A program made the position numbers and the translations under genes. A stretch of DNA of 11,160 nucleotides, from positions 1 through 11,160 of the forward strand of contig NZ_JACRYT010000034.1 in NCBI RefSeq assembly GCF_014333425.1, read 5' to 3'. Below, piece by piece: positions 3,248-8,775 of this stretch; the first letter of the stretch is position 1; each line of letters opens with the position of its first letter. Source of the DNA: Zhenpiania hominis. Its GTDB lineage: Bacteria; Bacillota; Clostridia; Peptostreptococcales; Anaerovoracaceae. A model generated the notes under the pieces. That model saw only the letters and a program-made list of their open reading frames with translations. It made no database searches and was not told the origin of the DNA.

Positions 3248-4762
3248 TTACAATCTTCCCAAGCTGGCAACGGGGGTTCGATTCCCCTCATCCGCTCCAC
3301 TCTTATTCACAATTAGATGAATATCAACACGATCGTTGAAAATTACAACCTTTTCGACATAGGTCTGGATAATGCGTTTTTGCGCTTCCGGGCTTTTCTT
3401 TTTGACATCTCGATCTTTCATAATGTAATCATACATCTGCTTTTCGGTCAATTCGGTTGTTTCGGACAGGCTTTCAATATAAGCAATTTTATCTTTGCAG
3501 TAATTAATCCGCTCATAATGTTGATCCCCCTTTTCGATCATCCAAGGCTTTCCCTCTCCCGTTTCTATGAGGTTCAGAATATAATCGAGGCCTTTTTGCT
3601 CTTTCGCAAGTTCTGTTTTTAATGCCTGTAATTCCAACGCGGAATCAGAACGGTATTGAATTGAATGTGCTTTTAATTTTTGAACAAGTTCCATGACGTT
3701 TTTTTCATTAAAAAATTCATTTTCAAGATAGTCAATGACCATCGATTCAATATCATCTTTCTTTATTCCTTTCATAGAGCAAGTTTTGAACTTTTTCCGG
3801 TTAGAGCATTCATAGCCGGAATAGATACTATTTGTTCTGCCGGCTTTGCGGGTATTCCCGGTCATGTGCGCGCCACACTCCCCGCAAAAAATAATCCCTG
3901 AGAGCAGATAAATTCGTTTTGCACCTTTCGCAGCGTTTCGTTTTCTGTTTTCTTTCATTTTCTGATTCACCCTTTCCCATAAGTCCGGTTCAACGATAGC
4001 AGGAACTCCGTCCTCAACAATAATATGAGGTTCCTTTTGAACTCGTTTTGTCCCAAGAGGAACAGCAGTCTTACCGTACAAAAAAAGTCCTTTGTACTTT
4101 TCATTTTTCAAAATATCATGGAAACTATTCTGCGTAAATGCGCGTCCCCATTTTGTCCGATGTCCCTGTTTATTTAGCTTCTCTGCCATTTTTGTATAGC
4201 TTATGTCTTCTGCATACATCTCAAAGATTAGACGCACGACTGCAGCTTCTGAGGGGTTTATGACGTAATTTCCGTTTTCGTTGATGTTATACCCAAGTGG
4301 CGGGTTGCCGCCGTTATGTTTACATTGATGGGCGGTTTCGTTTTTTCCTTTTTTTACTTCGCGGGCAAGATTCTTTGAATAATACTCACTCATTCCCTCC
4401 AGTACCGATTCCAGAATAACGCTTTCCGGGCTACCGTCGATGTTTTCCAGAACTGAAACGAGTTGCACGCCGCGCTCTTTCAGTTTCCGTTTATAAAATG
4501 CGCTGTCATATCTGTCCCGGGAAAAACGGTCGAGTTTGTGGACGATGACCACATCCGGCGGGGCAGAATTGACGTCTTTAAACATTTGCTGAAATTGCGG
4601 CCTGTCGTCCGTTGTGGCAGACTTTGCTTCGTCGCGGTATATATTTGTCAGTACATATCCGTTTCGCTGGCAGTAGTCCTGTATGGCTCTCAGCTGTGCG
4701 TCAATAGATTCTTCCCGCTGATGATCCGAGCTGAAGCGGGCGTAGGCCCATGCGGTTTTCAT
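3248..4762 (-). CDS. Large serine recombinase (phage integrase)
   Basis: 504 aa, normal for large serine recombinases. The N-terminal resolvase domain (about 1-150) has YARFSSDHQ with the likely catalytic Ser11 and the VIVHKLDRFSRDRYD segment. A recombinase domain follows (about 160-265), then a zinc ribbon (about 295-340: FCGECGAHM ... YECSNRKKFKTC) and a coiled-coil region with the C-terminal beta strands. It should integrate and, with a directionality factor, excise the element by a covalent Ser-DNA intermediate. RBS AAAGGA lies about 11 nt before the ATG. Odd feature: the last 17 or so residues (GADEGNRTPVASLGRL) are the antisense translation of the tRNA-Gly fragment, so the natural protein end depends on what lies at the att junction. 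Confidence 0.93.
   Translation of the reverse strand: MKTAWAYARFSSDHQREESIDAQLRAIQDYCQRNGYVLTNIYRDEAKSATTDDRPQFQQMFKDVNSAPPDVVIVHKLDRFSRDRYDSAFYKRKLKERGVQLVSVLENIDGSPESVILESVLEGMSEYYSKNLAREVKKGKNETAHQCKHNGGNPPLGYNINENGNYVINPSEAAVVRLIFEMYAEDISYTKMAEKLNKQGHRTKWGRAFTQNSFHDILKNEKYKGLFLYGKTAVPLGTKRVQKEPHIIVEDGVPAIVEPDLWERVNQKMKENRKRNAAKGAKRIYLLSGIIFCGECGAHMTGNTRKAGRTNSIYSGYECSNRKKFKTCSMKGIKKDDIESMVIDYLENEFFNEKNVMELVQKLKAHSIQYRSDSALELQALKTELAKEQKGLDYILNLIETGEGKPWMIEKGDQHYERINYCKDKIAYIESLSETTELTEKQMYDYIMKDRDVKKKSPEAQKRIIQTYVEKVVIFNDRVDIHLIVNKSGADEGNRTPVASLGRL
3255..3299 (+). other. Attachment-site core: 3' fragment of tRNA-Gly(CCC)
   Basis: Bases 3255-3299 match a tRNA 3' half: anticodon loop TTCCCAA (anticodon CCC at 3258-3260), anticodon stem arm GCTGG (3263-3267), variable CAAC, T arm GGGGG-TTCGATT-CCCCT (3272-3288), acceptor arm CATCCGC, discriminator T and an encoded CCA (3297-3299). 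The 5' half is absent: the bases upstream cannot form the D arm or complete the anticodon stem. So this is not a working tRNA gene but the kind of 3' piece that phages and integrative elements carry in their att core. It lies between a lysis-type gene and an integrase, the expected place of attP in an unintegrated genome, or of a junction between tandem elements. Confidence 0.75.
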
Positions 4763-4912: not shown

Positions 4913-5746
4913 CTATTCTTTTTTTAACTTCTTTTGAGTCCGTTCTATTTGCTTTATGCTTTTCTCTGGTGTGGGAAGATCTTCGGGCATAGTGCCTCCG
5001 AGTTCACTAATTGTCTGCCTGACTTTTCTTCCGACTTCAAAATGTGTTTTATTTGCTTGGATTTTTTCTGAAATGTTTTCTCTGCGTAGCTTTTCATCTG
5101 TTTGGGTGGCTCGAAAAAGGTTTGCCGCAAGTTCAGTGCTTCCCATAAAATCAAGAATTTTATGGCTCTTTTTAAGCCCCTTTCGCGCGTGAATTTCTTT
5201 ATTGCCAAGTCCTCCATAAAGCCCTTTATAACCTTCATTTTGAAAAATCGCATAATCGGTAGGACTTTCTACTCCAGCCAATTTTGCAGCTTCAGCAAGA
5301 GATTTATTATGTTCTATAAGCTCATTTCGAATAGCAAGACGTTTTTCATCTTCTGACATGTTTTTGAAAGCTTTACTTTCAGAGAGGGTAGTCATAATAA
5401 CGTCATGTAATGTTGCTGTAGCCCATTTTCTGAATGCTGTAGCGCTTTTAGAATTAACTCTGTATCCCACTGCAATAATTGCATCAAGATTGTAAAACTG
5501 TAGATTCCTTGAAACATTTCTACCATTTTCATTTTGAACTACTCGAAATTTTCGAGTAGTTGAATCCTCTTGCAATTCCTCACTTTTGAAGATTTCTTGA
5601 AGATGATAGGCTATTGTGTTGCTTTCAACATCAAATAGATTCGCCATAACCTTTTGAGTTGTCCAAAAAGTATCGTCTTCAAACTTAAAAGGAAATGAGG
5701 GGTGATTTTCGTCTATTCTATAATAGAAAATAAGGTCAGTAGACAT
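4913..5746 (-). CDS. RhuM-family / DinD-like protein
   Basis: 277 aa with a strong RBS (AAAGGAGG, 7 nt before ATG). The N-terminal half (about 1-115) has the RhuM/BRO-type pattern: YRIDE, FWTTQKVMANLFDVESNTIAYHL, FYNLDAIIAVGYRVNSKSATAFRKWAT. The C-terminal half (about 160-277) matches the DNA-damage-inducible protein D pattern: HKILDFMGSTELAANLFRATQT, KTHFEVGRKVR, ELGGTMPEDLPTP. E. coli DinD affects RecA filaments; RhuM proteins are phage- and island-borne and poorly understood. Placed between integrase and regulators it could modulate RecA/SOS in the lysogen or act as a DNA-binding antirepressor-like protein. The combined architecture is seen; the function is inference. Confidence 0.8.
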   Translation of the reverse strand: MSTDLIFYYRIDENHPSFPFKFEDDTFWTTQKVMANLFDVESNTIAYHLQEIFKSEELQEDSTTRKFRVVQNENGRNVSRNLQFYNLDAIIAVGYRVNSKSATAFRKWATATLHDVIMTTLSESKAFKNMSEDEKRLAIRNELIEHNKSLAEAAKLAGVESPTDYAIFQNEGYKGLYGGLGNKEIHARKGLKKSHKILDFMGSTELAANLFRATQTDEKLRRENISEKIQANKTHFEVGRKVRQTISELGGTMPEDLPTPEKSIKQIERTQKKLKKE

Positions 5747-5941: not shown

Positions 5942-6169
5942 CTATGCGGCCTGGGTAAAATCAACAATAGCAATTTCGGTTAAAGCGGTTTTTACCCGAT
6001 CAACAATTCGCTCGATTTTTTCCAGAGTTGTGCCGCTCAAATATTCCTCTCCGCATTGTGAACACTTTTCACAAGGCACATTTTTAATAATAATATAGCA
6101 ATTTTCATAATCAGTCATATACGTAGTGGTAGCATTTTCGATTGTGCCCTTACAATAAAAGCAGGCCAT
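5942..6169 (-). CDS. YgiT-type zinc finger protein (MqsA N-terminal-like), orphan
   Basis: 75 aa, RBS AAGGAGA 6 nt before ATG. Two CxxC pairs, CFYC at residues 3-6 and CSQC (residues 36-39, preceded by CEK), with the family pattern NVPCEKCSQCGEEYL and a C-terminal helix IERIVDRVKTALTEIA. These features match YgiT-type zinc fingers, the N-terminal half of MqsA-like antitoxins; such genes often pair with a DUF4258 or MqsR-type toxin. No such toxin is next to it: upstream is the type I locus and downstream the RhuM/DinD-like gene. It may be an orphan antitoxin, a zinc-dependent regulator, or half of a broken pair. The HTH half of full-length MqsA is missing. Confidence 0.8.
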   Translation of the reverse strand: MACFYCKGTIENATTTYMTDYENCYIIIKNVPCEKCSQCGEEYLSGTTLEKIERIVDRVKTALTEIAIVDFTQAA

Positions 6170-7518: not shown

Positions 7519-7542
7519 TACTACTCTCATAGGAGGGTAGTA
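7519..7542 (+). promoter_or_regulatory. 10-bp palindrome covering RBS and start of the small XRE gene
   Basis: TACTACTCTC (7519-7528) pairs with GAGGGTAGTA (7533-7542), one T-G pair, 4-nt loop ATAG. It contains the GGAGG and ends at the A of the ATG. It may be a DNA operator for autoregulation or an mRNA hairpin that limits translation. A possible promoter (TTGTTC at 7482, 17 bp, ATTAAT) lies upstream. Confidence 0.55.
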
Positions 7543-7739
7543 TGGAAATATTGATTTACGATGCAAGGAAGTCAAAAGATATTTCCTTGCATGAATTGTC
7601 TAATCTGACCGGTATTGGGAGTAGTACACTAAACCGAATCGAAAATAAGATTACGTCACCAACTCTCGATCAGTTAGAATTAATTGCAATAGCGTTAAAT
7701 ACCAAAATTACCGCATTATTTCTGTCAAAGTACAAATGA
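7542..7739 (+). CDS. Small XRE-family helix-turn-helix regulator
   Basis: 65 aa, RBS AGGAGGG 4-5 nt before ATG. Nearly the whole protein is one HTH_3/XRE domain: residues 6-27 carry helices 1-2, GIGSSTLNRIENKITSPTLDQLELIAIALN the recognition helix and helix 4. No dimerisation or peptidase domain is added. It is divergent from the zinc-ribbon membrane gene and followed by the SOS-box promoter. It could be a Cro-like or accessory regulator, or control the divergent gene. The palindrome over its own start suggests autoregulation. Confidence 0.85.
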   Translation: MEILIYDARKSKDISLHELSNLTGIGSSTLNRIENKITSPTLDQLELIAIALNTKITALFLSKYK

Positions 7740-7761: not shown

Positions 7762-7786
7762 CCTTGTGCAAAAGGTGCATTTTTTA
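7762..7786 (+). terminator. Weak terminator after the small XRE gene
   Basis: TGCA-AAAGG-TGCA (7767-7779) can form a 4- to 5-bp stem and is followed by six Ts. It is short and AT-poor in stem stability, so only a weak stop of the XRE transcript. Confidence 0.35.
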
Positions 7787-7888
7787 TCCATTTGTACCGA
7801 TATTGGGAAACCGTTCCTGGGTTTAACACAGACCCCATTTTTTGTGATACAATCCGATCAAAGATACAGCAAAAACAAAATATCAGTA

Positions 7889-7921
7889 TTGTCAAACGCG
7901 AACATATGTTCTATAATGTTC
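7889..7921 (+). promoter_or_regulatory. Promoter with LexA (SOS) box between -35 and -10
   Basis: TTGTCA (7889-7894), 17 bp, TATAAT (7912-7917) is a strong promoter. Inside the spacer is CGAACATATGTTCT (7899-7912), which fits the Gram-positive LexA/DinR box CGAACRNRYGTTYG in 13 of 14 places. A further GTTC at 7918-7921 follows the -10. LexA bound here would exclude RNA polymerase. The -10 context CTATAATGTTC is identical to that of the early promoter at 8556, so the phage repressor may bind here too. Confidence 0.75.
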
Positions 7922-7963
7922 TTAGTTATCTTCGGCGGACATCCTTTGGGGAGGTGCTACATC

Positions 7964-8062
7964 ATGGACTACAAGAAAGCTATTATCGACTTACTAAACA
8001 AAGCAACAGATGAAGATGTTTTAGAACTCATCTATAGATTCTGTCGCAAGCTGATAGGCTAG
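7964..8062 (+). CDS. 32-aa helical peptide under the SOS-box promoter
   Basis: 32 aa (MDYKKAIIDLLNKATDED, then VLELIYRFCRKLIG). RBS GGGGAGG is 7 nt before the ATG at 7964; longer readings of this frame begin upstream of the promoter and are rejected. The sequence predicts two amphipathic helices with a basic end. Short proteins of this DYKK..I..LL type occur near phage repressors in Firmicutes, to my memory, with no proven role. It lies about 40 nt after the start of a transcript from the LexA-box promoter and stops inside a terminator, so it is a single-gene unit. The best guess is a small antirepressor or a host-regulator binder; this is inference from context. Confidence 0.7.
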   Translation: MDYKKAIIDLLNKATDEDVLELIYRFCRKLIG

Positions 8063-8090
8063 GGGAATCAGTTACCCCTGGTCTTTTTTG
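8059..8090 (+). terminator. Terminator overlapping both converging stop codons
   Basis: Stem CTAGGGG (8059-8065) / CCCCTGG (8075-8081) followed by TCTTTTTT. It contains the stop of the 32-aa gene (8060-8062). On the minus strand it encodes the last codons of the repressor (stop at 8072-8074). Confidence 0.8.
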
Positions 8091-8449
8091 TTAGCTAAAT
8101 CAACTGCAATTTTTTCGAGCACCTTCCATTCGTCCTCTGATAGCTTAGCAAGAGATTCTATTAATCTAGTTTTAAAAGAGTCATCTTCCTTTATCAAATC
8201 TCCTGCAAAGTCTGTTATGGTTTGGTTTCTGTTTAACTTTCGAAAAGGCTCCCCTTCGCCTGTTCTTAACCATTCTTCATTTACATTAAACTCTCTGCAT
8301 ATAGAAAGAATCATTTGCTCTGTTAAGTTCCTGTTATTGTTTTCAATGTTTGATATTGCAGTTTTTCCAACACCTAACGATTTTCCAAACTTTTCAAGCG
8401 TCATATTTAACTGCTTTCTTATCTCTTTAACGCGTTCTCCTTGCGTCAT
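8072..8449 (-). CDS. CI-like XRE repressor without S24 peptidase domain
   Basis: 125 aa from the ATG at 8449, with RBS AAAGAGGTG 6-7 nt upstream; a longer reading from 8494 covers the promoter and is rejected. The HTH_3 domain spans about residues 5-62 (GERVKEIRKQLNMTLEKFGK, VGKTAISNIENNNRNL, FNVNEEWLRTGEGEPF). The C-terminal part has a short helix pair (LSEDEWKVLEKIAVDLANK) typical of short Clostridial phage repressors. There is no Ala-Gly cleavage site and no Ser/Lys protease domain, so RecA-driven self-cleavage is unlikely. It is divergent from the early operon and should shut the promoter at 8533-8561. Confidence 0.9.
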   Translation of the reverse strand: MTQGERVKEIRKQLNMTLEKFGKSLGVGKTAISNIENNNRNLTEQMILSICREFNVNEEWLRTGEGEPFRKLNRNQTITDFAGDLIKEDDSFKTRLIESLAKLSEDEWKVLEKIAVDLANKKDQG

Positions 8450-8472: not shown

Positions 8473-8501
8473 ATAATAACATTAAACGAATCATAAGTCA
8501 A
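8473..8501 (-). promoter_or_regulatory. Repressor promoter (minus strand)
   Basis: Minus-strand TTGACT (8501-8496), 17 bp, TATTAT (8478-8473). Expected start about 8466; a GAAC/GTTC half-site (8467-8470) lies at the start point, fitting autoregulation by the repressor. Confidence 0.8.
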
Positions 8502-8532: not shown

Positions 8533-8565
8533 TTGACTTTGTCCTCTTAGTGAACTATAATGTTC
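8533..8565 (+). promoter_or_regulatory. Early lytic promoter with embedded operator
   Basis: TTGACT (8533-8538), 17 bp, TATAAT (8556-8561). The -10 sits inside the palindrome TGAAC-TATAAT-GTTCA (8551-8566), the likely repressor operator. Start about 8568. It is back to back with the repressor promoter, -35 boxes about 30 bp apart. Confidence 0.85.
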
Positions 8566-8595
8566 ATAAAGATAACAAAGACGGGAGGTGAGTAC

Positions 8596-8775
8596 ATGAG
8601 TGACAAAGAAAAAGAAATTATCGAAACGATGGCCGAAGCGCTTCCGAAGATGAGCGAAAGAGATAAAGGGTACTTTCTTGGATATGCTGAGGCGATGGCA
8701 AATCACAAAGATTGTGGCGAGAGCAGTGAACATGATAACTTAGGCAAACAGTCAGAACCCAATAAAGCGGGATAG
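8596..8775 (+). CDS. Small early protein, first gene of the rightward operon
   Basis: 59 aa from the ATG at 8596, which has GGGAGGTG 6-8 nt upstream; the frame is open further left but has no RBS there. Charged N-terminus (MSDKEKEIIETMAEALPKMS), then RDKGYFLGYAEAMANHK, and a polar Ser/Asn/Glu-rich tail. Small proteins with the pattern P-KM...KGY-LGY-EAMA are frequent right after phage repressors in Clostridia, to my knowledge without assigned role. The position equals that of cro, but there is no HTH. Confidence 0.75.
   Translation: MSDKEKEIIETMAEALPKMSERDKGYFLGYAEAMANHKDCGESSEHDNLGKQSEPNKAG

Follow-up and report, generated by a model that had tools for sequence, protein, structure and literature searches.

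SinI of Bacillus subtilis is a small helical protein that resembles the C-terminal oligomerisation hairpin of SinR, pairs with SinR and disarms it; together they form a chromosomal biofilm switch that is neither a phage system nor SOS-controlled. Tum of coliphage 186 and the antirepressor of N15 are SOS-controlled and inactivate a repressor that stays uncleaved, and both are larger proteins found in other hosts and at other positions. Here we describe an 11,160-base contig of Zhenpiania hominis (the window, meaning the whole stretch analysed) in which a 99-base gene for a 32-residue peptide converges on the gene of a 125-residue phage repressor. From its sequence, its relatives and structure predictions, we propose that the peptide is probably a LexA-controlled antirepressor that pairs with the oligomerisation domain of the repressor in a SinI-like manner. 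As in the SinI–SinR pair (PDB 1b0n), the likeness is to a C-terminal hairpin in an XRE repressor, with which the peptide is proposed to pair.

In Salmonella, GfoA and GftA of the Gifsy prophages are, in the account of PMC3121763, small antirepressors made from a LexA-repressed unit that bind and inactivate the repressors GfoR and GtgR; these repressors are uncleaved on induction, and the antirepressor unit lies outside the immunity region. The first-pass annotation of the window had pointed to LexA-controlled antirepressors in Gifsy-type phages, and that report bears it out. Compared by description only, our locus is like GfoA and GftA in function, with LexA-type control and a non-cleavable repressor, whereas it differs in having a single gene that converges on the repressor and in belonging to Clostridia rather than Enterobacteria. 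The CI repressor of phage TP901-1, as PMC11149083 describes it, has an all-helical C-terminal domain, no autocleavage and RecA-dependent induction, with RecA acting "through unknown mechanisms" in the words of that 2024 paper; MOR is a 72-residue helix-turn-helix protein, described there as binding the N-terminal domain of CI. Our locus shares with CI–MOR a Gram-positive phage, an all-helical C-terminal domain and a repressor without autocleavage, whereas the peptide, unlike MOR, is a 32-residue predicted two-helix hairpin that matches no helix-turn-helix family. According to PMC10432266, TF-smORF modules use a small protein with a dedicated promoter to inactivate cI without proteolysis; unlike the peptide gene, they are driven by the transcription factor of a divergent neighbour and are SOS-independent. 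AimX of arbitrium phages such as Phi106 is, from its database entries (PDB 9sf2, 9iaq), a small antirepressor acting on a short phage repressor and, unlike the peptide, is under arbitrium signalling instead of an SOS box. Chain A of 9sf2 is related to our repressor (E 6e-5), and the peptide profile gave no match to the 9sf2 and 9iaq chains at E up to 1. We found no published description of the peptide–repressor module among the titles and abstracts listed by a full-text literature search whose coverage mostly leaves out subscription papers and bioRxiv; the peptide family, its layout and its mimicry appear to be new, LexA-controlled antirepressors as such being already known.

The immunity region is laid out as follows, with strand in brackets.

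7889–7917 (+): sigma-70-type promoter of the peptide gene, TTGTCA (7889–7894)-17-TATAAT (7912–7917), matching the consensus at 11/12 positions
7899–7912 (no strand): SOS (LexA-type) box CGAACATATGTTCT, occupying the promoter spacer, from sequence and enrichment in relatives
7948–7954 (+): Shine-Dalgarno sequence GGGGAGG, from sequence
7964–8062 (+): gene of the 32-residue peptide MDYKKAIIDLLNKATDEDVLELIYRFCRKLIG, the proposed antirepressor; an open reading frame (ORF) of a conserved family, with a ratio of nonsynonymous to synonymous differences (pN/pS) of 0.32
8056–8092 (+): intrinsic terminator of the peptide transcript, a hairpin plus U-run, with terminator-like hairpins in relatives
8072–8449 (−): phage repressor, 125 residues from the ATG at 8449, from ORF, Pfam, PHROGs and AlphaFold2
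8473–8501 (−): candidate repressor promoter TTGACT-17-TATTAT, from consensus match only
8533–8566 (+): candidate lytic promoter TTGACT-17-TATAAT, from consensus match
8551–8566 (within the lytic promoter): palindrome TGAACTATAATGTTCA with N6 spacing, a candidate repressor operator

Two structural claims of the first-pass annotation, a box inside a TTGTCA/TATAAT promoter and a single short gene with its own terminator, hold at this level: the box sits in the 17-bp spacer, and the ORF runs into a hairpin at 8056–8084 (stem of 10 bp, −15.9 kcal/mol, z −2.8) with a U-run after it. The hairpin includes the peptide stop codon and overlaps the stop codon and final codons of the repressor; a first terminator scan lacked it because the loop limit was 8 and the loop here is 9. 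On the same strand, the peptide frame could be extended to a GTG at 7766 (98 residues), a start that lies upstream of the promoter, and a 73-residue frame overlaps it at 7792–8013; the relatives favour the short 32-residue form. An alternative repressor start at 8494 would give 140 residues.

The box is the sole exact GAACNNNNGTTC in the window, where five sites with up to one mismatch were found against 4.1 expected, by count alone not beyond chance. Because a single exact GAAC-N4-GTTC in the window is unremarkable, relatives were checked for the same layout. The viral loci comprised 53 reached from the repressor and a further best 80 of 319 found with an alignment of 15 repressors; the genome loci were the best 80 of 500, also found with an alignment of 15 repressors. 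With the window this gave 214 loci, or 184 once duplicates were dropped, which was done only where repressor and peptide were both identical. Four of the 184 were set aside for having less than 250 nucleotides (nt) of downstream sequence. These loci are near relatives and not a random sample, and some contigs occur in both viral sets. Peptides were chosen by similarity to nine hand-picked seed peptides, with a Shine-Dalgarno sequence required; the 107 obtained come from 105 and 1 counted loci and one locus with less than 250 nt downstream.

What makes the box significant is its place in the promoter and its recurrence in these relatives. An exact GAAC-N4-GTTC lies upstream of 36/107 peptides, compared with a mean of 0.13 and a maximum of 1 in 100 shuffles; with up to one mismatch allowed, the count is 65/107, against a shuffled mean of 4.0 and a maximum of 10. 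Random stretches of the same loci contain the exact box in 2/2019 cases and a box within one mismatch in 86/2019. Among all tetramer palindromes with gaps of 0–12, GAAC with a gap of 4 is the commonest upstream of the peptides, and the second commonest, AACA-N2-TGTT (33 upstream regions), is largely the same site; the GAAC/GTTC half-sites at gaps of 0–3 and 5–10 occur 0–2 times. A promoter-like site is found near 52 of the 65 boxes and is overlapped by 50 of them (136/650 for random positions), and 24 boxes have the geometry seen in the window, with the −35 element starting 11 bases before GAAC and the −10 element directly after GTTC.

The LexA consensus is CGAACRNRYGTTYG, with inner positions R-N-R-Y in Bacillus. 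The inner positions of the 65 boxes, which lie outside the search pattern, read R in 59, N, R in 57 and Y in 62, and so match this consensus. We also searched for lexA in 15 genomes that carry related modules, of which 13 gave a match over the cut-off, with only the best match per genome examined. Within 350 nt upstream of lexA, the motif is present with up to one mismatch in 12/13 (exact in 4), and in 8/13 even the third-best site is within one mismatch. From these sequence patterns, we consider it very probable that the peptide gene is under LexA control.

The pairing of peptide and repressor recurs with a particular kind of repressor. A convergent peptide of the family lies directly 3′ of the repressor in 105/133 loci whose repressors are 90–139 residues long and have at least 250 nt downstream, and in 1/47 loci with longer repressors, the exception (L013) having 141 residues (Fisher P 4e-22, for loci that are related to one another). 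Across 106 loci with repressors under 140 residues, the peptides as picked are 29–59 residues long (median 34), and their stop codons lie a median of 12 nt from those of the repressors. A profile scan, whose model was itself made from the peptides found at these loci, gives an adjacent convergent match in 98 loci. Where matches below E 0.01 lie elsewhere than expected, the loci all have repressors under 140 residues; 15/28 short-repressor loci scored as lacking the peptide have a match below E 0.01 somewhere in the locus, and in two of these 15 (L086, L119) it is adjacent to the repressor. The genome loci are mainly from Lachnospiraceae, Oscillospiraceae and other Clostridia, and within the family of one genome, that of locus L059 in the commensal Lachnoanaerobaculum saburreum DSM 3986, 21 of 200 genomes drawn (the L059 genome included) have a peptide-profile match at E up to 0.001.

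Named phages carry the peptide as well: Terrisporobacter phage TPDSL_ph2 with an exact box, and Clostridioides phage Hain-Saunders-2022a with a box of one mismatch. In Blautia phage Montmirail, a convergent 39-residue gene lies near one-mismatch boxes, though the peptide profile missed this gene, and in MT835488 (L261) the profile match is away from the repressor, with no box found at up to one mismatch. Genes of this kind are readily overlooked: of the five phage records examined for their annotation, four (Idris, Arawn, Hain-Saunders-2022a and TPDSL_ph2) leave the peptide unannotated; in TPDSL_ph2 an ORF is called on the opposite strand at this place, and the 39-residue gene of Montmirail is listed as a hypothetical protein. 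Among phage records, two C. difficile phages are similar to the region at the DNA level, over 6% of the query. Separately, five of the 47 loci with longer repressors (147–179 residues; L044, L050, L052, L108 and L122) have a second, unrelated convergent protein of about 40 residues 3′ of the repressor, with the motif IYAIYY...IYYNLNF and no box within one mismatch upstream; this protein may be another repressor partner.

The repressor scores above Pfam cut-offs for HTH_19 and HTH_3 only. Peptidase_S24 is not found in it at E up to 1, which upholds the earlier view of a 125-residue repressor without an S24 autocleavage domain and sets it apart from a lambda-type CI. A repressor of this kind is the partner that fits the functional class of LexA-controlled antirepressors. 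An M78 metalloprotease of the ImmR–ImmA type is likewise missing among the 20 predicted proteins scanned with Pfam in this record, which is a fragment. The AlphaFold2 model of the repressor has a predicted local distance difference test (pLDDT) score of 93 overall and shows a helix-turn-helix domain at about residues 1–66, followed by an all-helical C-terminal domain with helices at 74–87, 92–101 and 105–124. As structural matches of this model to the PDB cover mainly residues 1–67, a SinR-like C-terminal domain is not established by structure comparison.

The peptide itself is modelled as a helical hairpin (helices 3–13 and 17–31, pLDDT 94) that corresponds in place to the predicted repressor helices 92–101 and 105–124. 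It matches no Pfam family at E up to 1, and thus neither the SinI domain, in which it is unlike SinI, nor any helix-turn-helix family. PHROGs returned one weak match, to phrog_19640 (E 0.09), which has no assigned function; the best PDB sequences have E 0.19 and 0.24, Foldseek gave no match to the model, and a tblastn search of phages gave three matches at E 4–5.

A profile comparison with hhalign aligns the peptide over nearly its full length, with one one-residue gap, to repressor residues of about 90–120. Against the C-terminal domain alone the score is 22.9 (probability 87%), compared with 11.2 for the reversed profile, 11.7 for the N-terminal domain and 12.7 for the best of 150 column shuffles; the reversal and the shuffles exclude a mere composition effect as the cause of the likeness. 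Circular shifts of the C-terminal columns gave an identical score in the best eight listed and are uninformative. Single pairs show the same tendency (24.0 against 19.6 shuffled, P 9e-11, 100 pairs), with no effect against the N-terminal domain (P 0.31).

The peptide also co-varies with this part of the repressor. In a set of 91 non-redundant loci, the distances between peptides follow those between C-terminal domains (r 0.387; 0/1000 permutations reached the partial correlation) and are hardly correlated with those of the DNA-binding, N-terminal domain (r 0.057) or of the neighbouring ORF beyond the peptide (r 0.060, 87/91 loci, with ORFs taken by position whether homologous or not). The two repressor domains are mutually uncorrelated in divergence (r 0.025), suggesting that specificity domains are frequently swapped. 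This pattern of correlations indicates joint evolution of the peptide and the C-terminal domain as a single unit, as would fit contact between them. Given the hairpin likeness and the co-variation, the C-terminal domain is the most likely pairing partner of the peptide. We regard the repressor as a likely target of the peptide with good confidence, and mimicry of its C-terminal hairpin as a reasonably probable mechanism; this likely mechanism of a peptide that resembles and co-varies with the hairpin goes beyond what the first-pass annotation had proposed.

In a lysogen, host LexA would sit on the box between the −35 and −10 elements and keep the gene silent. Upon DNA damage, LexA would be cleaved and the peptide made, from a self-contained transcript with a terminator seen at the repressor 3′ end. 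The two-helix hairpin would then pair with the repressor C-terminal domain and break or cap its oligomers, and the lytic promoter would be freed once the repressor was disarmed, as SinI acts on SinR. A repressor without an autocleavage domain could thereby obey the SOS response. For the wider family, on balance we favour a widespread group of antirepressors of about 30–45 residues in Clostridia phages that imitate, and are maybe derived from, the repressor oligomerisation hairpin; most members would be LexA-controlled and convergent, and the C-terminal domain and peptide would form one exchangeable SOS-sensing cassette beside a freely swapped DNA-binding domain. To the question of how Gram-positive phages with non-cleavable repressors sense DNA damage, the module offers a concrete and compact answer that would hold for many gut Clostridia phages. 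From it one can predict which prophages would react to DNA-damaging drugs, and it may offer a 32-residue trigger of prophage induction.

Several observations weigh against this picture. For 42/107 peptides, the 160 nt upstream contain no box even with one mismatch allowed, and in Butyrivibrio phages Idris and Arawn the peptide is present with no such box in the stretch examined. Across the whole of the 15 carrier genomes, the strict 14-base consensus shows no enrichment over its backward control (19 sites against 25), and the genomes searched for lexA were picked because their peptide had a box. As for mimicry, other profile builds give hhalign probabilities of 55–65%, a spread of 55–87% across builds, and a pair of amphipathic helices is a widely shared motif. 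Cognate peptide–repressor pairs show no closer likeness than non-cognate ones (24.0 against 23.5, P 0.35). Physical linkage could also be a partial cause of the co-variation, against which the control with the ORF on the other side argues weakly. With these points counted, an SOS-controlled peptide that inactivates a non-cleavable repressor, as first suggested for this locus, is still the best reading, its support being wholly computational and drawn from the box consensus, the lexA sites, the lack of the exact box upstream of the repressors and the tie to short repressors.

Of the other explanations, the one that survives best keeps a LexA-controlled antirepressor and changes its route, with the peptide binding the DNA-binding domain or linker, as MOR does, or sending the repressor to proteolysis. 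The box, promoter and association evidence fit this equally well, MOR of TP901-1 is described as binding the N-terminal domain (PMC11149083), and the lack of any closer likeness within cognate pairs speaks for it. We consider it unlikely, as peptide divergence tracks the C-terminal and not the N-terminal domain, and the peptide profile matches the C-terminal hairpin.

The box might instead serve as operator for the phage repressor or some other phage regulator, and the peptide gene would be an ordinary early gene outside the SOS response. Phage operators are also palindromes, the lytic promoter holds the related TGAAC-N6-GTTCA, and the strict LexA consensus shows no genome-wide enrichment in carrier genomes. 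The N6 spacing of that palindrome is distinct from the N4 of the SOS box, however, and in the 160 nt upstream of 107 repressors the exact N4 box occurs in 0/107 and a box within one mismatch in 2/107, on which grounds we reject the repressor operator as its identity. With inner positions that fit a LexA-type consensus and the same class of motif at the lexA genes of carriers, this explanation is very unlikely.

Still less room is left for an SOS promoter that works through RNA, lowering the repressor by convergent transcription or antisense pairing, with the ORF incidental. The promoter does aim at the 3′ end of the repressor gene, and the transcript overlaps the last repressor codons. Against this, the ORF has a Shine-Dalgarno sequence and is under purifying selection specific to its frame: pS is 0.72 and pN 0.23 for 47 pairs of equally long peptides that are at least 50% identical and have a minimum of four differences, whereas two shifted frames, compared with the same identity cut but without the four-difference minimum, give pN/pS of 0.99 and 1.38. 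On this frame-specific selection we reject an incidental ORF. Moreover, terminator-like hairpins within 45 nt after 71/107 peptides (25/535 random stretches) would halt transcription where the two genes meet.

Comparably improbable is an effector induced by SOS and aimed elsewhere, be it at host LexA (as with GIL01 gp7, an SOS-linked small phage protein described in PMC4551915), a toxin–antitoxin partner or the XRE protein encoded upstream at 7542–7739, as occurrence of the peptide depends on the kind of repressor and the peptide resembles and co-varies with the repressor C-terminal domain.

The gene content of the window, judged from ORFs, Pfam and PHROGs, is that of a temperate phage fragment, in which the RhuM-type gene is followed by the immunity region and by small early genes as far as the right end. 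Three further features are as follows.

12–722: C39-like peptidase
3248–4762: serine recombinase
4913–5746: RhuM-type protein

The 65-residue XRE helix-turn-helix protein (7542–7739, +) is encoded just upstream of the peptide gene, and in one relative (L009) an exact LexA-type box lies upstream of a gene comparable to it. A 75-residue protein (5942–6169, −) bears a weak likeness, below cut-offs, to YokU- and MqsA-type antitoxins. A 59-residue protein, encoded by the gene that opens the divergent early region (8596–8772, +), matches phrog_36092 (E 1.5e-4) and contains the stretch IIETMAEALPKMSERDKGYFLGYAEAM, a possible two-helix hairpin.
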